Of a stretch of 37,311 nt of DNA, positions 11,547 through 19,076 are shown in pieces; the stretch's first letter is position 1; each line of letters opens with the position of its first letter. Under the pieces are notes generated by a model. The model had not been told where the DNA came from and searched no databases. It saw only the letters and a list, made by a program, of their open reading frames with translations. A program made the translations under genes and the position numbers. The DNA is from a virus. The stretch lies in IMG/VR virus record IMGVR_UViG_3300025889_000361, positions 1-37,311 of that record; one strand, 5' to 3'.

Positions 11547-11951
11547 ATGAAAAATTTCAAAATCACTTCAGACTTCAACTCAGCAGTCGCGATGGCTTCA
11601 GAGATTCTTGGCTATCCAATGTTTGAGTGCTACGAAAACGTGCAGGCTGAGAAAGCCAAGCGCCACGAGAAGTACGGCACTGAAAAGTTCTACGTCACTG
11701 AGTCTGGCAAAATCCTTTGGGTCTTCAATTACGAAGGCGAGCGCGTCCTTAACATCACTACTGGCCCATCAGGCTCTTGCTTGTCTGCCGGAAGTCTTGG
11801 TCTCGTGATGATTCAAGATGATTCTATCGATGTCATCATGGAAGAATTTGTCGCTAAAGATGATCGTGCTACTCGCATACACGCTATGCGGAGTTTGGAA
11901 TCTAAATTCGTTTTCGCAGATCGCGATGTTTTACGGGAGATTGCGGCGTAA
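11547..11951 (+). CDS. Protein of unknown function, first gene after module B
   Basis: A 134-residue protein, start context GGAGCAAAAAGACATG. Soluble, mixed alpha/beta, with no motif I recognise (MKNFKITSDFNSAVAMASEI; GKILWVFNYEGERVLNI). It ends REIAA with the codon order GCG-TAA, and the stop codon lies in the loop of a hairpin (11943-11956). The gene at 15764 occupies the same place after module C but I see no sequence similarity between the two products. Confidence 0.6.
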   Translation: MKNFKITSDFNSAVAMASEILGYPMFECYENVQAEKAKRHEKYGTEKFYVTESGKILWVFNYEGERVLNITTGPSGSCLSAGSLGLVMIQDDSIDVIMEEFVAKDDRATRIHAMRSLESKFVFADRDVLREIAA

Positions 11952-11956
11952 GCCGC
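11943..11956 (+). other. Stop-codon hairpin 1 (GUAA tetraloop)
   Basis: GCGGC-GTAA-GCCGC: a perfect 5-bp stem closed by C-G around a GUAA (GNRA class) tetraloop. The UAA at 11949-11951 is the stop codon of the 11547 gene. The ribosome site for the next gene (GGAGGAG) begins eight bases after the stem. Confidence 0.7.
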
Positions 11957-11976
11957 TTTCTCTGGAGGAGATAGTC

Positions 11977-12141
11977 ATGAGAATCGGAACATATTTCGTT
12001 TATCCAAAGGGTCAGAAGTCTAAGGGCTTCAAGATTGATGCAGTTAGCTTTGATGCCGCTAAGTCGATCTTCAATCAGGTTGAAGGCATCGCGGACACCA
12101 ACCAGAATCGTTGGAAACTTTGGGCAGACAGGGTCGCGTAA
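11977..12141 (+). CDS. Small protein of unknown function
   Basis: A 54-residue protein. I chose the ATG at 11977 with GGAGGAG seven bases upstream; longer in-frame starts lie inside the previous gene. The product begins MRIGTYFVYPKGQKSKGFKI and ends WKLWADRVA. The compact basic fold has no recognised motif. It ends GCG-TAA in a second tetraloop hairpin followed by a T run. Confidence 0.55.
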   Translation: MRIGTYFVYPKGQKSKGFKIDAVSFDAAKSIFNQVEGIADTNQNRWKLWADRVA

Positions 12142-12152
12142 GCGGCCTTTTT
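12132..12152 (+). terminator. Stop-codon hairpin 2 with T-tract, terminator-like
   Basis: GGTCGC-GTAA-GCGGCC: a 6-bp stem with one G-U wobble around a GUAA loop that contains the UAA stop of the 11977 gene. TTTTT follows at 12148-12152, so this copy also has the form of an intrinsic terminator and may act as a partial one, since the small-gene operon continues. Confidence 0.65.
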
Positions 12153-12179
12153 GCGTTTACAGCAAATAAGGAACCAGAA

Positions 12180-12404
12180 ATGAAAACAATCGATATCACT
12201 CCTACTTGGCAAACGATCGTCTCAATCGGTTGCGAGGTAATCGCTAATCCGAATGCAGACCAAGAGGCGAAGGAATCCTTCAAAGAGGAGCTGATGAGGC
12301 TCGCAAAGATCGTTGATGATCAGAACGCTGAAGCGAAAAAGGATCGGTGGACGACACTCGATGTGATCGTCGCTGAAGAAAGAGCCAAAGGCAATCTCAT
12401 TTAA
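12180..12404 (+). CDS. Small helical protein of unknown function
   Basis: The ATG at 12180 follows AAGGAACC; an in-frame ATG at 12111 would overlap the previous gene and its hairpin. 74 residues, mainly helical: IVSIGCEVIANPNADQEAKE then FKEELMRLAKIVDDQ and TTLDVIVAEERAKGNLI. No family recognised. Probably one of the host-takeover or accessory proteins typical of such small-gene runs. Confidence 0.55.
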   Translation: MKTIDITPTWQTIVSIGCEVIANPNADQEAKESFKEELMRLAKIVDDQNAEAKKDRWTTLDVIVAEERAKGNLI

Positions 12405-12418
12405 ACAGGGAAATTGAA

Positions 12419-12694
12419 ATGAAGTTAATTAAGCAAGCAAACAGCGCACACGTTCTGGATACGGATGATATCCAGATCTTGTTCAGCTACGAGACTCCAG
12501 TGGCCGTCTGGATCGTTGGCAGTCACTTCTTAGTCACTGAGACTGATTACAGCCGGACGACTACCGGCCATATCAACCACTTCGTTCGCGATCGTACATA
12601 CAAGCAGAATGTCGGTCTGACGTTAGCTAAAAACGATCAGGTTGAGTTCGTTCCACAAGAGCGCATCAATGACGCGCTGAAGGAAACTGTATGA
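12419..12694 (+). CDS. Small phage protein with TTGHIN motif
   Basis: A 91-residue protein. The stretch FSYETPVAVWIVGSHFLVTE followed by YSRTTTGHINHFV resembles a small widespread phage family of unknown function with 'SYxTPVA ... TTxHIN' (I believe DUF8033-like; not checked). Soluble, beta-rich. The next gene overlaps by four bases (ATGA). Confidence 0.6.
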   Translation: MKLIKQANSAHVLDTDDIQILFSYETPVAVWIVGSHFLVTETDYSRTTTGHINHFVRDRTYKQNVGLTLAKNDQVEFVPQERINDALKETV

Positions 12695-12891
12695 GACAGA
12701 AGTTCATCATTCAGGAAATCGAATACAAGGGTCAGGCTTACACTGTCACGCGCAAAGTCGTAGGCAGTAATGAGCTTGAGCCTAGTGAAGAAATCGTTAC
12801 AGAGGTTGTCGGTCACGACAGCGTATGTTTCGATGATGAAGAGGTCGCCTCTAAAGGCGATGTAATATCTGAAACTTGTGAATATCACTGA
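12691..12891 (+). CDS. Small acidic protein of unknown function
   Basis: A 66-residue frame coupled by ATGA overlap. It starts MRQKFIIQEIEYKGQAYTVT and continues with an acidic beta segment (EEIVTEVVGHDSVCFDDEEV). No recognised motif. The coupling and good composition support expression. The following gene's AGGAACC ribosome site overlaps this gene's stop. Confidence 0.5.
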   Translation: MRQKFIIQEIEYKGQAYTVTRKVVGSNELEPSEEIVTEVVGHDSVCFDDEEVASKGDVISETCEYH

Positions 12892-12901
12892 GGAACCAGC
12901 A

Positions 12902-13132
12902 ATGGCAGTTAAGAAACTTGAGGAAGTCGTTAAGACTAAAGAAGAACTAAAGCAGTTATGTACTGATCATCTGATCGATATGGTCGTTCGCAGGGAGCTA
13001 CGCGATGAACTGAAATTGCGTTTTAAGCGTATGCAGGCGAACAACTGCAATCAGATGGTGCGCTTAGATAAGGCTTGCGAGTTAATCGGATACGCAGAGC
13101 TCAATCAGGCGATGGAGGAGGATTGCCGATGA
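12902..13132 (+). CDS. Small helical protein of unknown function
   Basis: I chose the ATG at 12902, with AGGAACC eight bases upstream, over a GTG at 12878 inside the previous gene. 76 residues, very helical and charged (VKTKEELKQLCTDHLIDMVV; LRDELKLRFKRMQANNCNQM). It may form a coiled coil. Overlaps the HTH gene at 13129 by four bases. Confidence 0.5.
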   Translation: MAVKKLEEVVKTKEELKQLCTDHLIDMVVRRELRDELKLRFKRMQANNCNQMVRLDKACELIGYAELNQAMEEDCR

Positions 13133-13353
13133 GCAGTCAGAAGCTAGAGATCCTAAGCCATCTTAGGCAGTTTGGCTCTATCGATTTCTTTACGTCACTG
13201 CGTAAGTTTCATTGCGCAAGGCTAGCGGCGCGTATCCTAGACCTCCGGCAGTCAGGGCATAGGATCGAGACAGTCATGGAGAAGAATACCGAAGGGAAAC
13301 GATTCGCTCGATATATTTATCGCGGTGAAACATTGCAGGGAGGAAAAAGTTAG
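13129..13353 (+). CDS. Phage-type winged helix-turn-helix protein
   Basis: The ATG at 13129 overlaps the upstream stop and has GGAGGA upstream; the longer frame from 13075 lies in the previous gene. 74 residues: KLEILSHLRQFGSIDFFTSL, then CARLAARILDLRQSGHRIET and RFARYIYRG. This is the small HTH seen in many phages next to replication genes ('...LAARIxDLRxxGHxIET...'). It probably binds DNA near the large gene-free stretch that follows. Confidence 0.7.
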   Translation: MSSQKLEILSHLRQFGSIDFFTSLRKFHCARLAARILDLRQSGHRIETVMEKNTEGKRFARYIYRGETLQGGKS

Positions 13354-13803
13354 GGCATAGTTAAAAGCAGTGCCGGACGGGGTGTGAGAAGCCCCTAGCG
13401 AACCGGACTGAAACTAAGGAAAAGACCCAAGCCGCACTCCGGCACTGGTTCATAGTTTAACAACACTAAGTGTTGCATTTCAAACGATTTCCCTTCTTTT
13501 CAGTCCATTCGCGCCCGTTGAAACTGTCGCATGGCGCAGTAGCACCAGAAAGCCAGATTGCAGTCCAACCTATGAGGACGGGACAAACAGCGTTAGAGGT
13601 GATCCGCCGATTGTCGGAATAAAAAGTGGTTTTATTCGGATGAAATTTTAGGCAGGGACGGTTGAGCTACCGGATGGAGACACCCACCATCGAAAGCACT
13701 GCTGATTACTGTGACTGCATGGACTAGCATTGAACGACGAGAGATGGACAGGGATCACCCTACGTCCTCTAAATGACAACTATTGCCATAAAAAGGGAAG
13801 GCC
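13354..13803 (+). other. 450-nt gene-free stretch rich in inverted repeats; candidate structured RNA or origin
   Basis: The only long gap in the window. Visible pairings: a perfect 10-bp stem CAGTGCCGGA (13368-13377) / TCCGGCACTG (13438-13447) enclosing GGGG/CCCC (13379-13382/13392-13395); CAACAC-TAA-GTGTTG (13461-13475); CCGA/TCGG (13607-13617); GAATAAAA/TTTTATTC (13617-13637); CGGT/ACCG (13659-13672); and GGACAGGG/CCCT..GTCC (13746-13767). The longest + frame without a good start is ~50 codons. No tRNA, tmRNA, RNase P or known riboswitch signature is recognised. A structured RNA, a long helicase leader or a replication origin all remain possible. Confidence 0.5.
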
Positions 13804-15285
13804 ATGGAGCTCAGACCACATCAGATCAAAGCGATAGAAATGCTCAGAGCATCGATCGCATCAGGCAAACGCAGACCGATACTGGCCGCGCCTTGCAGTT
13901 TCGGCAAAACAATAACAGCGGCGGCGATCCTTAAATCAGCAGTCGAGAAGGGTAAACGAGCCATCTTCATCTGTGACCGGATCAAACTGGTTCAGCAAAG
14001 CCTTGAGGCTTTCGACAGCCATAATCTCGATTTCGGCGTCATTCAGGGCAACCATGAACTGACCGATATTTCCAAGCCTATCCAGATCGCCAGTATTCAG
14101 ACGATAGCTAGGCGCAAGGTTTATCCTGAGTTCGACATTGCAATCGTTGATGAGTGCCATACGCACTACGAGACTCTAACGAACATGATGGAGGCTTACT
14201 CGGCAGTCCCATTCATCGGCCTTAGCGCAACGCCATTCAGCAAAGGCCTCGGTCAGCACTATGACGATATTGTGGTTCCGATCACGCCAGAGGAATTGCT
14301 AGAGCAAGGCTACCTCACTCCGGTGGAGTATTTCGGAGGCCGTCAGGTAGATACGACAGGGATTAAACGCCGGCAGTTATCCACAGGAGGCTCAGATTTC
14401 GATCCTGAAGCCTTATCAGAGCGCATAGAGAAAGATGCGGCTCTGGCCGGAGACATCGTTAAGAACTGGCTAAAATATGCGCAGGGACGGCAAACGATCG
14501 CGTTCAGTCCATCGATCAAGCACAGCAAGTATCTGGTCGAGATGTTTCGAGAGGCTGGCATTACAGCAGAGCACATTGACGGCTATATGGATGACGAGAT
14601 GCGTCAGGAGCTTTACGAGGCTCACGATGATGGCGAGTTCATGGTTCTATCCTGCTCACGACTGCTGAACACCGGCTACGATGCGCCGACAGTCTCTTGT
14701 CTGATCGATGCTTTCCCAACAGCAAGCCTAATCAGTTTCGTTCAGCGAGCCGGCAGAATTATGCGTACAGCAAACGGCAAAGAGAACGCGATTTATCTCG
14801 ATCACGCCGGTAACGTGCGTAGGCATGGATTCGCTGAGTCTGTGGTTCCAGAGCTACTCGATGACGGCTTACATCGGTTCAGTGAGCGCAAACTGGTTAA
14901 AGAGAAGAAACAACCCAAGGTTCAGCAGTGTCCAGAGTGCTATCACGAGATGGTCGGCGTTCGATGCAAATGCGGTTACGAGCTTCCGATCCATAAACAG
15001 ATCAACACTGACGATCAGATACTAGAGCGTCTCACGGCGGCTAAGAAAGCCAATCTGACGTATTCGCCAGAGCGTAAGGCCGAATGGCTCGGCGAGCTCA
15101 CGTTATACGCTCAGGAGCGCGGCAAATCGAAAGGATGGATCATGCACCGCTACCACAGTAAGTTTGGCGTATGGCCGAATCGTATTGAGCCAACCAGAGT
15201 CAGCGGCGTATCTGACGAGGTACATAACTGGATCAAGAGGGAAAATATACGTCACGCACATATGAGGATGAAAAATGCCGGTTAA
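13804..15285 (+). CDS. SF2 DNA/RNA helicase (SSL2/DEAD-like) with C-terminal zinc ribbon
   Basis: A 493-residue helicase that would unwind nucleic acid using ATP. RPHQIKAIEML is the Q-like motif. Motif I is APCSFGKT (29-36), close to the usual PCGxGKT but with Phe before GKT. Motif II is DECH (116-119), motif III SATPF, and motif VI QRAGRIMR. Residues ~370-395 add a zinc ribbon (CPECYHEMVGVRCKCGYE). AGGGAAGG sits before the ATG. With the CHC2-type gene downstream it looks like the replication-initiation core of a phage that borrows the host DNA polymerase. Confidence 0.87.
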   Translation: MELRPHQIKAIEMLRASIASGKRRPILAAPCSFGKTITAAAILKSAVEKGKRAIFICDRIKLVQQSLEAFDSHNLDFGVIQGNHELTDISKPIQIASIQTIARRKVYPEFDIAIVDECHTHYETLTNMMEAYSAVPFIGLSATPFSKGLGQHYDDIVVPITPEELLEQGYLTPVEYFGGRQVDTTGIKRRQLSTGGSDFDPEALSERIEKDAALAGDIVKNWLKYAQGRQTIAFSPSIKHSKYLVEMFREAGITAEHIDGYMDDEMRQELYEAHDDGEFMVLSCSRLLNTGYDAPTVSCLIDAFPTASLISFVQRAGRIMRTANGKENAIYLDHAGNVRRHGFAESVVPELLDDGLHRFSERKLVKEKKQPKVQQCPECYHEMVGVRCKCGYELPIHKQINTDDQILERLTAAKKANLTYSPERKAEWLGELTLYAQERGKSKGWIMHRYHSKFGVWPNRIEPTRVSGVSDEVHNWIKRENIRHAHMRMKNAG

Positions 15286-15682
15286 TAACATTCTAAATCG
15301 TCTCGATAAAGTGGTTACAGCAGGCGAATCTAAATGGCGGTGCGCTTGTCCTGTCCATAACGGCAAGGACAGGAACATGATGATCAGCGAGCGTGCTGAC
15401 GGCTCGGTAGGCGTTCACTGTTTCGTTTGCGGTGCTACCGGCACAGAGTTGATGGAAACGCTCGGCCTTCCGATGAAGGAGCTATTCTCGCCAGACTCAA
15501 CTTACATCAGGCCGACAGTCACAAAGAAGATGGAGCAAGAGTTATTAGAGGATGAACTGGTTCTGATGATGGCTCAGAGAGCAGACGAGGATGGCACTAA
15601 ACTATCTCTGGAAGATCGCAGACGAGTTCGGCTCGCTCGGCATCGTGCATCATCAATTCAGGCGATGAAGCAAGAAACATAA
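15275..15682 (+). CDS. Stand-alone CHC2-type (primase) zinc-binding protein
   Basis: A 135-residue protein overlapping the helicase by 11 bases. Residues ~20-60 show the primase zinc-binding domain: WRCACPVHNGKDRNMMI, then VGVHCFVCGATGTELMETLG, i.e. Cys/His ligands CP-x-H and C-x-x-C with the conserved 'G....L'. The Toprim catalytic part of a primase is absent; the C-terminal half is helical and charged. It may recruit or regulate a host primase/helicase, or act as a DNA-binding cofactor of the SF2 helicase. Confidence 0.75.
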   Translation: MPVNNILNRLDKVVTAGESKWRCACPVHNGKDRNMMISERADGSVGVHCFVCGATGTELMETLGLPMKELFSPDSTYIRPTVTKKMEQELLEDELVLMMAQRADEDGTKLSLEDRRRVRLARHRASSIQAMKQET

Positions 15683-15763
15683 AAAAAACAACAAAAAGGT
15701 TTGTTTTCTTGTTTTATTGAGGCATACTAACCATGTCGAATAACTGCTAGGGAGCAAAAAGAC
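15683..15763 (+). promoter_or_regulatory. Intergenic module C: terminator-like hairpin then promoter/leader
   Basis: AAACAACAAAA can pair with TTTTCTTGTTT (one C-C mismatch) around AGGTTTG, then T-rich sequence: a weak intrinsic terminator for the helicase operon. Downstream lies TTGTTT, a 16-base spacer and CATACT, a plausible sigma70-type promoter. The block CATACTAA...TGTCGAATAA...GGAGCAAAAAGACATGAA is shared with module B (11468). A short hairpin TGCT/AGCA flanks the ribosome site. Confidence 0.6.
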
Positions 15764-16036
15764 ATGAATAACGTAGATTACTCTTTAATTGTTCGGAACC
15801 ACGGCCTTCTAATTGGCGCGAAGTTTGATCCTTCTGTCATCGAAGTAATTGTTCTCCGCGATGGTGAGGTTTTTAGTAACTTCAGCCGTTGCGCTGTCAA
15901 AGAATCTAACGCCCCGTATCACGAAGCTTCAATGTGTCATCTTCATTGGCCAGAACGCCATTGGCAAACTTGGGTTCTTTATTCTCACGGTTGGGAAAAA
16001 GTTGTCGACAATGGTTTTTTGAGTGAGTCGGCGTAA
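15764..16036 (+). CDS. Protein of unknown function, first gene after module C
   Basis: A 90-residue protein with the GGAGCAAAAAGACATGAA start context. Soluble, with Trp/His-rich C-terminal half (HLHWPERHWQTWVLYSHGWE) and ending FLSESA. No family recognised; no cysteine cluster. It ends GCG-TAA inside a tetraloop hairpin. Position and expression signals parallel the 11547 gene. Confidence 0.6.
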   Translation: MNNVDYSLIVRNHGLLIGAKFDPSVIEVIVLRDGEVFSNFSRCAVKESNAPYHEASMCHLHWPERHWQTWVLYSHGWEKVVDNGFLSESA

Positions 16037-16044
16037 GCCGGCTC
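16025..16044 (+). other. Stop-codon hairpin 3 (GUAA tetraloop)
   Basis: GAGTCGGC-GTAA-GCCGGCTC: an 8-bp stem with one G-U wobble around a GUAA loop. UAA (16034-16036) is the stop codon of the 15764 gene. The next ribosome site, AGAGGAG, begins three bases after the stem. Confidence 0.75.
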
Positions 16045-16061
16045 TCAGAGGAGATTTTATT

Positions 16062-16946
16062 ATGAGTCAAGCAGTTCAATTCCTTCAGAGAGAGCTTCAG
16101 ACAGCTAGTCAGCGTAAAACATACGTCTACATCAGCACTGGCGAGGAAACCGGCTTTTACACGTTGCGTAAGGTTACGTTCGTTCCTGTCTACGATGGTC
16201 TCGGCGTATTCAATGGCGAGTTCACAGAACACGATCACTACGTTCAGAATCTTTCGACTGAGCCTAAGCTGGCAGAGCAGAAGTGTGCTGAGTTCGCTAA
16301 GAAGCATGGCTACGAGAATCGTGGTATCGCTGATTTCACTCTTGAGGAGTGGTATCACTCTTTCGCTTATAACAACGATATGATCGATTCGATCCGTAAA
16401 GACGGCGTCATCATTTTCGGCGAGAAGCATTTCCACAAATCGTTCAAGGATGTCATCGATTCTGATTATCGCTACATCCACTGGATGCTGAACACAGCAG
16501 ACTTCATCCTCAAAGATGTTGAGGCCGCTAAGAAGTCTCGTCGTTTAAATCGCATGGAGCTTACAGCAATCGTTATTCAGCAGATGATCGCTGACGGTGA
16601 ACTGTATCTTCCAGAGGAGCCAGTGGTTGTTCCTGTTGTCGAAAAGCCATCAGTCTGGATCGGTGAGATCGATGAAAAGATCGAGTTTCAGGGTACTTGT
16701 GTATTCGCTAAATCATTCGAGACTCGTTTCGGTTACAACACGATCTATATCGTTAAGTCTGATGACGATGTTGTCGTGAAGTTCTTTTCTACTTCAGCCA
16801 CGCTCGATGACGTCAGCCGTGGCGATTGGGTTCAGATCAAGGGGACTGTCAAGTCTCACGATCTTGATGAGTATCGTAATAATAATAAGGTCACTCAATT
16901 GACTCGCGTCAAGTGTGTCGATCATGTAGCAAAGGAGGAGGCGTAA
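16062..16946 (+). CDS. Unknown protein with a C-terminal OB-fold-like domain
   Basis: I chose the ATG at 16062 with AGAGGAG upstream; an in-frame start at 16023 lies in the previous gene. 294 residues. Residues ~5-190 are unassigned (TYVYISTGEETGFYTLRKVT; a helical core with HWMLNTADFILKDVEAAKKS). Residues ~205-290 look like a small OB fold: WIGEIDEKIEFQGTCVFAKS, FGYNTIYIVKSDDDVVVKFF, RGDWVQIKGTVKSHDLDEY, LTRVKCV. Such domains bind single-stranded nucleic acids in related phage proteins. It ends EEA with the fourth stop hairpin. Confidence 0.6.
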   Translation: MSQAVQFLQRELQTASQRKTYVYISTGEETGFYTLRKVTFVPVYDGLGVFNGEFTEHDHYVQNLSTEPKLAEQKCAEFAKKHGYENRGIADFTLEEWYHSFAYNNDMIDSIRKDGVIIFGEKHFHKSFKDVIDSDYRYIHWMLNTADFILKDVEAAKKSRRLNRMELTAIVIQQMIADGELYLPEEPVVVPVVEKPSVWIGEIDEKIEFQGTCVFAKSFETRFGYNTIYIVKSDDDVVVKFFSTSATLDDVSRGDWVQIKGTVKSHDLDEYRNNNKVTQLTRVKCVDHVAKEEA

Positions 16947-16953
16947 GCCTCCT
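16936..16953 (+). other. Stop-codon hairpin 4 (GUAA tetraloop)
   Basis: AGGAGGC-GTAA-GCCTCCT: a perfect 7-bp stem around a GUAA loop. UAA (16944-16946) is the stop of the 16062 gene. The next ribosome site AGGAG (16954-16958) abuts the stem. Confidence 0.75.
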
Positions 16954-16964
16954 AGGAGATAATA

Positions 16965-17111
16965 ATGGAACTGTTAGATATTCTCGTTTACATCGCGGCG
17001 TTCAGCTTCTTATGGCTGTTCTGCTGTTTCTTAGGTGCGGTGATCGATTGGTCGTTACGCCGTTTATTTGGTTTCGGAATATTCCCTAAGGGATACTGGA
17101 GTTCGAAATGA
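16965..17111 (+). CDS. Small membrane protein
   Basis: A 48-residue frame with AGGAG upstream of ATG. It is one long hydrophobic segment (ILVYIAAFSFLWLFCCFLGA) followed by a basic amphipathic part (SLRRLFGFGIFPKGYWSSK). The orientation is probably N-out/C-in by the positive-inside rule. Stop overlaps the next start (ATGA). Function unknown. Confidence 0.5.
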   Translation: MELLDILVYIAAFSFLWLFCCFLGAVIDWSLRRLFGFGIFPKGYWSSK

Positions 17112-17769: not shown

Positions 17770-18384
17770 ATGACCAGCATTACGAATCTTGAGGTCGTCT
17801 ATCTAAAGACGGCTGACATAATCCCCTACGTTAATAATCCTCGCGAACACCCTGAAGAACAGATCACGCATATTGCATCCAGCATCAAGGAATTTGGATT
17901 CACCAATCCTATCCTAGTGGACGAGACAAGTAGCGTTATCGCAGGGCATGGCCGTCTCATGGCCGCTAAGAAGCTCGGGCTAGAGGAAATCCCTACAATC
18001 ACGTTAACAGGACTCACAGAAGCGCAGAGAAAGGCGTATGTGATCGCTGACAACCAGATGGGATTAACGTCTGAATGGGATGACGATCTATTGAAGCTCA
18101 CGTTGCAAGAGCTATCTGACATGGAATTCAATCTTCAGCTTCTCGGCTGGGGAGACAACATACCTGAGTTCGTTGAGGCTCCTGATTACGGGATTCTCGA
18201 TGATGAAGATTTAGACGATCAGCTAGATGAAATGGCTGGCGGAGTGAAAAAGGCTATCCAAATCGAATTTGAGCCAGAACACTACGAAGAAGCGCAGGAG
18301 CTCGTCAAATTCTGGCGAGAGCAAGGCGGCTACATCGGAATGTTCCTGATTGATAAGCTCAGAGACGAAAAGGATAAGCTATGA
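17770..18384 (+). CDS. ParB/Srx-fold nuclease-like protein
   Basis: I chose the ATG at 17770 with GGTGGAG five bases upstream; the longer frame from a TTG at 17710 lacks a ribosome site. 204 residues. It has the ParB N-terminal fold: LKTADIIPYVNNPREHPEEQ, ASSIKEFGFTNPILVDE, then GHGRLMAAKKLG (59-70) and AYVIADNQMGLTSEWDDDLL. In phages this domain often precedes DNA methylase or other base-modifying genes; here it precedes a methyltransferase and an oxygenase. The C-terminal ~80 residues are acidic. Confidence 0.82.
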   Translation: MTSITNLEVVYLKTADIIPYVNNPREHPEEQITHIASSIKEFGFTNPILVDETSSVIAGHGRLMAAKKLGLEEIPTITLTGLTEAQRKAYVIADNQMGLTSEWDDDLLKLTLQELSDMEFNLQLLGWGDNIPEFVEAPDYGILDDEDLDDQLDEMAGGVKKAIQIEFEPEHYEEAQELVKFWREQGGYIGMFLIDKLRDEKDKL

Positions 18385-19076
18385 AAACAGAGCGCGGCGC
18401 ACTGAGGGGCATCGAATTTATCCACAGGGTTGGATTCTCTGATCTGAAGACATTTGAAGAAGTCATCGGCAGAGATACGTACCAGAAACGAGGCCTAAAG
18501 ATCGAGGCCGGCGAATCATGGCTAGACTGTGGCGGTAACGTAGGCGCATTTGCATTACTGGCCTGTTCGCTCGGTGCTAAGGTCAAAGTATTCGAGCCTG
18601 ATCCGTATAACTGCGAGATGATCGAAAAGAATCTCGATCTGAACGGCTTCAAAGCTGAGATCAAGCAAGCCGCACTGGTGCATAACGACACTAAAGAAGT
18701 CACGCTATTCATCGGCAACAACAATAACGTCTGGCGCAACTCGATCGTCAAGAAATGGAATAAGCTCGGCCTCAAGGTTCCGGCAGTCAATTTCGATCAG
18801 GAGGCTTTCGGATGGGATTGCTGTAAAATGGACATCGAAGGCGCAGAGATGCCAATCCTTGAGACGACAGAGACTCGATTCAAGAAACTGGTATACGAAT
18901 GGTCGTTCGACATTGATCCAAGCCTGACGCGCCTATGGGACGTCCTAGACCAGCAGAAAAAGAAATATCGGGTTGAAGCACCATGGCATTCAATCTGTTA
19001 TGACGACAAACGCGAGACGCAATGGCAGAAATCATGGTTTCCTGCTTGCGCCAACATATTCTGTTTCGAGAAATGA
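18381..19076 (+). CDS. FkbM-like SAM-dependent methyltransferase
   Basis: A 231-residue protein coupled by ATGA overlap to the ParB-like gene. SAM-binding motif I is WLDCGGNVGAFALL (47-60) and the acidic ribose-binding end of the next strand is FEPDP (71-75). Motif CKMDIEGAEMPIL near residue 151 is typical of FkbM enzymes, which usually methylate hydroxyl groups of sugars or small molecules. No cytosine-C5 (PCQ) or adenine (DPPY) signature is present, so classic DNA base methylation is not supported. Substrate unknown. Confidence 0.8.
   Translation: MKTERGALRGIEFIHRVGFSDLKTFEEVIGRDTYQKRGLKIEAGESWLDCGGNVGAFALLACSLGAKVKVFEPDPYNCEMIEKNLDLNGFKAEIKQAALVHNDTKEVTLFIGNNNNVWRNSIVKKWNKLGLKVPAVNFDQEAFGWDCCKMDIEGAEMPILETTETRFKKLVYEWSFDIDPSLTRLWDVLDQQKKKYRVEAPWHSICYDDKRETQWQKSWFPACANIFCFEK

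Follow-up and report, generated by a model that had tools for sequence, protein, structure and literature searches.

Introduction

Extra-stable tetraloop hairpins between phage genes are not without precedent, since bacteriophage T4 reportedly has intercistronic C(UUCG)G hairpins, described by Tuerk and colleagues in 1988. In gene 60 of T4, the stop codon is situated in or beside a stem-loop and translational bypass takes place (PMC3014915). Some of the non-structural genes of Cluster K mycobacteriophages have short repeats ahead of their start, called SAS and ESAS; about half come with 17-base-pair (bp) inverted repeats just 5' of the ribosome site, and their function is unproven (PMC3203893; PMC12699233). 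The boundary or linker sequences of lambdoid phages, as far as they are cited in PMC3029335, are short conserved junction sequences at which modules are exchanged by homologous recombination. In integrons, single promoterless genes are accompanied by an attC hairpin at the 3' side that marks the boundary of exchange. Here we describe a hairpin whose GUAA tetraloop contains the UAA stop codon of a gene and which mostly stands shortly before the ribosome site of the next gene. This stop hairpin was found at four gene ends in the DNA analysed (hereafter the window), which comprises positions 1 to 37,311 of IMG/VR virus record IMGVR_UViG_3300025889_000361, and it recurs in related phages, where it bounds the exchange of single genes.

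The stop hairpin resembles SAS/ESAS, the lambdoid boundaries, the T4 hairpins and the logic of integrons, and fully fits none of them. The mycobacteriophage elements consist of a fixed 13-bp GGGATAGGAGCCC and 17-bp repeats with a spacer of 4–13 bp (PMC3203893), whereas stop hairpins mostly have an uninterrupted stem of 5–9 bp that varies in sequence and carry the upstream stop in a loop of 4 nucleotides (nt); their leaders and stems differ from the SAS consensus GGGATAGGAGCCC in every copy read. As with the lambdoid boundaries, the same short sequence stands between different genes (linkers scoring up to 44 of 47–48, and the cassette at 11943–12147), yet here it is a covarying RNA hairpin with a stop and a ribosome site, it occurs at about 100 families, and it bounds single genes. 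The T4 hairpins have another loop and show no coupling of a stop in the loop to an adjoining ribosome site. Unlike the integron attC, the stop hairpin also brings with it a stop codon and the ribosome site for the next gene, and no integrase accompanies it in seven records including the window, in which tyrosine and serine recombinases (PF00589, PF00239) gave no match, although these records may be incomplete; exchange is most simply explained by homology. A literature search, weak because it was confined to open-access papers, returned no account of tetraloop-held stop codons as gene connectors.

Results

Four stop hairpins in the window

The window represents a siphovirus-like phage with genes for a tail fibre, a helicase, a ParB-like protein, terminase, portal, head and tail. 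An earlier note, made from the letters of this DNA, had placed the stop codons at 11949, 12139, 16034 and 16944 inside C(GTAA)G hairpins, and these positions are exact. All four loops read C(GUAA)G in the RNA, in agreement with the GNRA class named there, and the last codon of all four proteins is indeed GCG for Ala. The uninterrupted stems of hairpins 1–4 measure 5, 8, 8 and 7 bp (Table 1), with hairpin 1 growing to 10 pairs when a 2 + 2 internal loop is spanned. Their folding energies (−18.3, −15.9, −13.9 and −12.6 kcal/mol) are the lowest four among the 54 gene ends of the window, the next-lowest being −8.8 kcal/mol, and each of the four hairpins ranks in the lowest 0.25% of all stretches folded along the plus strand. 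That strand contains five GTAA hairpins with stems of at least 5 bp, four of them at gene stops, as compared with 0–3 at any position on the whole strand in 100 dinucleotide-preserving shuffles. The four stop hairpins are therefore confirmed as real and not due to chance. A CTAA loop on a 6-bp stem at 17086 was considered as a further copy and rejected, as the gene there uses another frame. No match to Rfam was obtained in the window at the gathering cut-offs.

Recurrence in related phages

A search with the helicase yielded 40 related contigs. In those with more similar helicases, genes end in frame at the same element, and a GGAG-type site and ATG come next; relatives at 51–60% helicase identity are mostly without it. 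A pattern composed of the commonest arm with a GTAA loop, a ribosome site and ATG was then run against the IMG/VR viral contigs; it matched at least 120 stretches, as opposed to 3 for the otherwise identical pattern with a scrambled 3' arm, and 130 of 140 pattern matches terminate an open reading frame in frame. A covariance model found matches in 20 of 24 whole records, with up to 7 in a single record. Altogether, 102 families lie upstream of stop hairpins and 77 downstream, one gene-sharing group takes in 125 of the 140 loci, and the genes upstream have a median length of 114 codons. The pairing is mostly preserved among homologous genes: 154 of the 183 members of the upstream families retain the hairpin.

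The stop hairpin is carried by a group of water-borne phages, most of them uncultured. Among GenBank phages, the Variovorax phage VBv52 is the sole confirmed case, with one true stop hairpin (in a 312-codon frame); linker searches of these phages gave mostly chance matches, and neither a DNA-level search with the window region nor protein searches with two cassette genes returned any match there. In cellular genomes (257 gigabases) there were 57 matches, most of which are either copies of a repeat in one Planctomycetota assembly or out of frame, which indicates that the stop hairpin is not a host feature. The VGYV01 assembly, one Planctomycetota metagenome bin, has many copies of GGCGGCGTAAGCCGCCGGAAGGGGGATGCCATGGGCGCA in L296 and other contigs (contigs and loci are denoted by L numbers throughout), often near contig ends, and these look like a dispersed repeat rather than a phage element.

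Loop preference and covariation of the stems

When the loop of the search pattern was swapped while the arms were kept, GTAA gave at least 120 matches, GAAA (GNRA, no stop) 42, CTAA (UAA, non-GNRA) 18 and GTGA (GNRA with UGA) 16. The CTAA matches share their linker context with GTAA. The GAAA matches come from other phages; these stopless hairpins, such as GGGCGGCGAAAGCCGCCC before GAGGAGAG..ATG in Escherichia phage CMS-2020a, have the same stem and a GNRA loop right before the Shine-Dalgarno sequence, but their stop lies mostly 3–22 nt ahead of the stem and almost no GCGTAAGC is present in those stretches. The GAAA version is located at about 300–330 in L386 (Escherichia phage CMS-2020a), and further examples are in L340–L381. 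At junctions collected free of any pattern, a stem of at least 5 bp was seen at 24 of 87 GTAA stops and at only 1 of 281 for TTGA, ATGA and CTGA loops, the remaining stop loops being near zero apart from a few TTAG, ATAA and CTAA. Taken together, the loop tests and the pattern-free junctions indicate a strong preference for UAA within a GNRA loop, though not a strict requirement for GNRA; the existence of CTAA, TTAG and ATAA versions had escaped the earlier note.

The stems covary across 46 distinct hairpins. In these, 88.3% of the 8-pair cells are standard pairs, compared with 30–57% in slid controls, two-sided changes occur in 43 cells against a shuffled mean of 14.9, and the covariation score of 0.422 (versus 0.170) was reached by none of 500 shuffles. 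With no filter on the stem, the stop loop is within the minimum-energy structure in 152 of 157 junctions, many of which were retrieved by a motif containing the inner stem, and the mean energy of these 152 structures is −15.8 kcal/mol. It is thus the base-paired structure, and not the sequence, that is conserved, and it belongs to gene ends. This covariation, together with the loop specificity and with the presence of the hairpin at the ends of about 100 unrelated gene families, strongly supports the earlier suggestion of a deliberate RNA element.

The same observations bear on an explanation at the protein level, according to which selection acts on a C-terminal Ala-Ala (a protease tail, for instance) and the hairpin arises only incidentally. 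Hairpin-less genes do end in Ala-Ala about twice as often as expected (29 versus 14.1), and some members retain Glu-Ala-Ala at ATGA overlaps. However, the 3' arm covaries although it is not translated, its scrambling reduces the matches as described above, and the window proteins have VA, SA and EA at their C-termini besides AA, all of which makes selection on the protein tail highly unlikely as the cause.

Junction layout and translation

In most copies, the Shine-Dalgarno sequence begins 0–12 nt past the stem; one is present within 40 nt in 193 of 207, a number that is partly forced by the search pattern. The earlier note had put the next ribosome site 3–8 bases away, which agrees reasonably with copies 1, 3 and 4 of the window (0 to about 8 nt past the stem) and fails for copy 2 (about 18–20 nt). 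The start codon is mostly found 16–30 nt past the stop, and 18–38 nt past it in the window; at many of the other junctions there, the two genes overlap by 1 or 4 nt. In Escherichia coli, coupling by reinitiation is down by 80–100% at 38 nt and nearly abolished at about 20–38 nt (PMC10666635), and structure shortly past the stop reduces coupling (PMC12548453). When the 5' arm was barred from pairing, the predicted openness of the Shine-Dalgarno sequence changed from 0.51 to 0.40, with a reduction in 104 of 137 cases. These distances, the predicted folding and the published coupling data suggest that translation of the downstream gene may be independent of the upstream gene, that is, uncoupled from it. 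A control over the ribosome between the two genes, as put forward in the earlier note, is plausible.

Termination of the mRNA had also been proposed, with attention drawn to a T run at the second copy; this run exists, although it lies partly within the stem, and it is the sole one among the window copies. Along with the C(TTAG)G stems followed by TTTTTTT in the same gene families (L071, L188, L193, L215 and L248), it might be taken to mean that the hairpins are intrinsic terminators or attenuators overlapping stop codons. Yet TTTT follows just 5 of the 137 distinct copies, so that most copies are not terminators, and a ribosome site comes straight after most stems. Moreover, the U tract of copy 2 is missing where the same cassette sits in L008 and L243, and the ribosome represses terminators adjoining a stop (PMC4824070). 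Termination as a general role finds no support in these observations, and terminators or attenuators are a very improbable explanation of the element. Terminators reading GCGGC(TTAG)GCCGCTTTTTTT, whose loop contains the stop TAG, were noted on the minus strand at about 8573 in L071, 1223 in L193, 7426 in L215 and 4249 in L188; a conserved CAATTTGACTTAGGATTA stretch mostly follows such terminators and may be a promoter.

Where members of the hairpin families are without the hairpin, the gene ends either in a C(TTAG)G stem and a U tract, a terminator whose loop contains the stop, or in GAGGAGGCAGCATGA, as seen in relatives of the hairpin genes in L250 and L183, where Glu-Ala-Ala is kept. The GGAGG of GAGGAGGCAGCATGA may act as a ribosome site for the overlapping ATG and so constitute a second junction type. 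These exceptions indicate that the connector replaces, and gets replaced by, other types of junction at the same gene ends.

In the mRNA entry tunnel of the ribosome, a stem is unwound before the stop codon reaches the decoding site. This unwinding speaks against the idea that the hairpin serves to pause the ribosome at the stop or to bring about readthrough or bypassing there, as does the next start, which is the normal Shine-Dalgarno and ATG of whichever gene lies downstream, in any frame; nor is any landing site or fusion product evident. With the location of the stop in a tetraloop hairpin and the precedent of the T4 gene 60 hairpin (PMC3014915) in its favour, we give this explanation hardly any credence.

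Exchange of single genes at stop hairpins

The cassette with the 54-residue gene (Table 1) is 95–96% identical in L008 and L243, where it occupies other positions between unrelated flanks, so that the window and these two contigs provide three different settings for it; the helicase DNA of the phages sharing it is 70% identical. It is a single-gene cassette with stop hairpins as its bounds, and its gene gave no match to Pfam or PHROG. L008 also has a relative of the 134-residue gene that ends in a stop hairpin and is followed by a different gene. At hairpin 3, L002, the contig with a helicase (L004) at 98% identity to that of the window, has in place of the 90-residue gene an unrelated 65-residue gene with its own hairpin AGAGCGGC(GTAA)GCCGTCTCT, which is different but paired. 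Up to 8 different upstream families precede a single downstream family, and up to 5 downstream families follow a single upstream one, with the hairpin kept in each case. Linkers of 44–48 nt can be near-identical where the genes on both sides are unrelated: the pairs L203/L255, L230/L211 and L271/L237 score 42–44 of 47–48, while the 200-nt flanks on each side score 8–11 and are unrelated. In L146, the upstream gene is the one common to L230 and the downstream gene the one common to L211. Single genes have thus been exchanged with breakpoints at stop hairpins, and it is this role of the hairpins as boundaries, the main point of the present work, that the earlier note had missed.

Exchanges at the hairpins are also what a pure recombination site would show, a short conserved palindrome retained as exchange homology with no role in the RNA. 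However, the stems vary while their pairing stays, which destroys homology and keeps structure, and a preference for UAA in a GNRA loop would be meaningless for DNA homology, so that a site of this kind alone appears improbable. Rad52-like recombinases with Orf and Rap produce phage mosaics (PMC3945230), and the recombination genes of the window encode a Sak-type annealing protein, an exonuclease, NinB/Orf and NinG/Rap.

Features of the window and neighbouring observations

Table 1. Stop hairpins, ribosome sites and adjoining genes of the 37,311-nt window
Feature	Position	Strand	Details	Basis
Exchanged single-gene cassette	11943..12147	+	First base of hairpin 1 core stem to hairpin 2 3' arm	
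134-residue gene	11547..11951	+	...REIAA; ends in hairpin 1	
Stop hairpin 1	11936..11963	+	GGAGA..GCGGC(GTAA)GCCGC..TCTCT; core stem 11943–11956; terminates 134-residue gene	
Shine-Dalgarno GGAGGAG	11964..11970	+	Gene after hairpin 1	Read from sequence
54-residue cassette gene	11977..12141	+	MRIGTYF...RVA	
Stop hairpin 2	12130..12149	+	AGGGTCGC(GTAA)GCGGCCTT; two G-U pairs; TTT after; terminates 54-residue gene	
Weak Shine-Dalgarno AAGGA	12168..12172	+	Gene after hairpin 2	Read from sequence
74-residue gene	12180..12404	+	After hairpin 2	
90-residue gene	15764..16036	+	Ends in hairpin 3	
Stop hairpin 3	16025..16044	+	GAGTCGGC(GTAA)GCCGGCTC; one G-U pair; terminates 90-residue gene	
Shine-Dalgarno AGAGGAG	16047..16053	+	Gene after hairpin 3	Read from sequence
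294-residue gene	16062..16946	+	phrog_3628 (unknown function); ends in hairpin 4	
Stop hairpin 4	16936..16953	+	AGGAGGC(GTAA)GCCTCCT; terminates 294-residue gene	
Shine-Dalgarno AGGAG	16954..16958	+	Immediately 3' of hairpin 4	Read from sequence
48-residue gene	16965..17111	+	After hairpin 4	

Two further regions of the window deserve mention. Just upstream of the helicase, a gene-free block of about 430 nt (13354–13803) is 70–96% identical in more than 12 related contigs and is present also in relatives without stop hairpins. RNAalifold, applied to 13 sequences of this block, gave 74 pairs, 14 of them with two-sided compensatory changes, and a comparison of the block with Rfam returned no match even at E 1; it is a candidate for a new structured RNA or a replication origin. 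The 274-residue protein encoded at 19022–19846 matches phrog_6059 (queuine tRNA-ribosyltransferase) and, weakly, the Pfam Tet_JBP oxygenase; its gene adjoins that of an FkbM-type methyltransferase (18381–19076) and is possibly, to judge from these matches, a base modification gene.

Discussion

We have moderate confidence that the stop hairpin is a modular connector in phage operons of small accessory genes, working both as a translation insulator and as a site of exchange. Its anatomy and the exchanges are seen directly in the contigs, and the effect on translation we infer. A connector would run from the last codons of gene A, which form the 5' arm, through UAA in the GUAA loop, the untranslated 3' arm and the Shine-Dalgarno sequence to the start of gene B. 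During termination of gene A, the hairpin (about 16–28 nt, centred on the stop) would be inside the ribosome, and because the terminating ribosome would cover all of it, as the size of the footprint suggests, it would fold only after release. The folded hairpin could then block sliding and reinitiation from gene A and hold the pyrimidine-rich 3' arm away from the next Shine-Dalgarno sequence, and gene B would thereby initiate independently on its own site. Such a connector would let any gene follow any other, with insulation being selected jointly with exchange. The linker would supply short homology at which the phage-encoded annealing recombination (Sak-type protein, exonuclease, NinB/Orf and NinG/Rap) could insert unrelated genes, presumably without harm to the neighbours because the stop, the insulator and the ribosome site would travel as one short conserved block.

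The main rival to the connector is a function in mRNA processing or stability, in which the hairpin would cap the 3' end of a cistron after cleavage of the linker and shield it from 3'–5' exonucleases, like the intercistronic palindromes of some bacterial operons. Such a function calls for stems between cistrons that are compact and GC-rich and bear a stable tetraloop, as is the case here (mean energy of −15.8 kcal/mol, as given above), and the hairpin does stay with its upstream gene where another gene lies downstream. Nevertheless, stability predicts neither the tight link to a Shine-Dalgarno sequence (within about 12 nt) nor the retention of the hairpin with downstream families, and protection needs no stop at the centre of the loop. 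We consider it rather unlikely that stability accounts for the element.

Several points weigh against the connector itself. The frequencies are biased, as most loci were retrieved by the motif, and the unforced counts and the helicase relatives alone are free of this bias. The covariation alignment was limited to stems of at least 5 bp, a choice that favours inner pairs; replacement of whole arms is visible nevertheless, as in the GGTCGC/GCGGCC, GCAGGC/GCCTGC and AGGAGGC/GCCTCCT types. In a test of G-U against A-C pairs, which bears on RNA versus DNA pairing, G-U pairs were not clearly above composition, so the pairing might be one of DNA strands. The predicted effect on the Shine-Dalgarno sequence is modest, and breaks were found at 7 of 10 hairpin junctions versus 49 of 95 others, a comparison too small to show a hot spot.

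If the uncoupling is true, the stop hairpin would be a compact insulator of natural origin, in which about 45 nt suffice to close one gene and open another whatever their sequence, and it would be useful for synthetic operons. As a recognisable and countable marker, it permits exchange to be tracked gene by gene over many contigs, and it offers a simple means of finding small accessory genes. More tentatively, these phages might possess a plug-and-play grammar of operons, in which cassettes bounded by hairpins, with the hairpins serving as insulators and as splice sites for annealing recombinases, would be arranged in the manner of an integron without an integrase.

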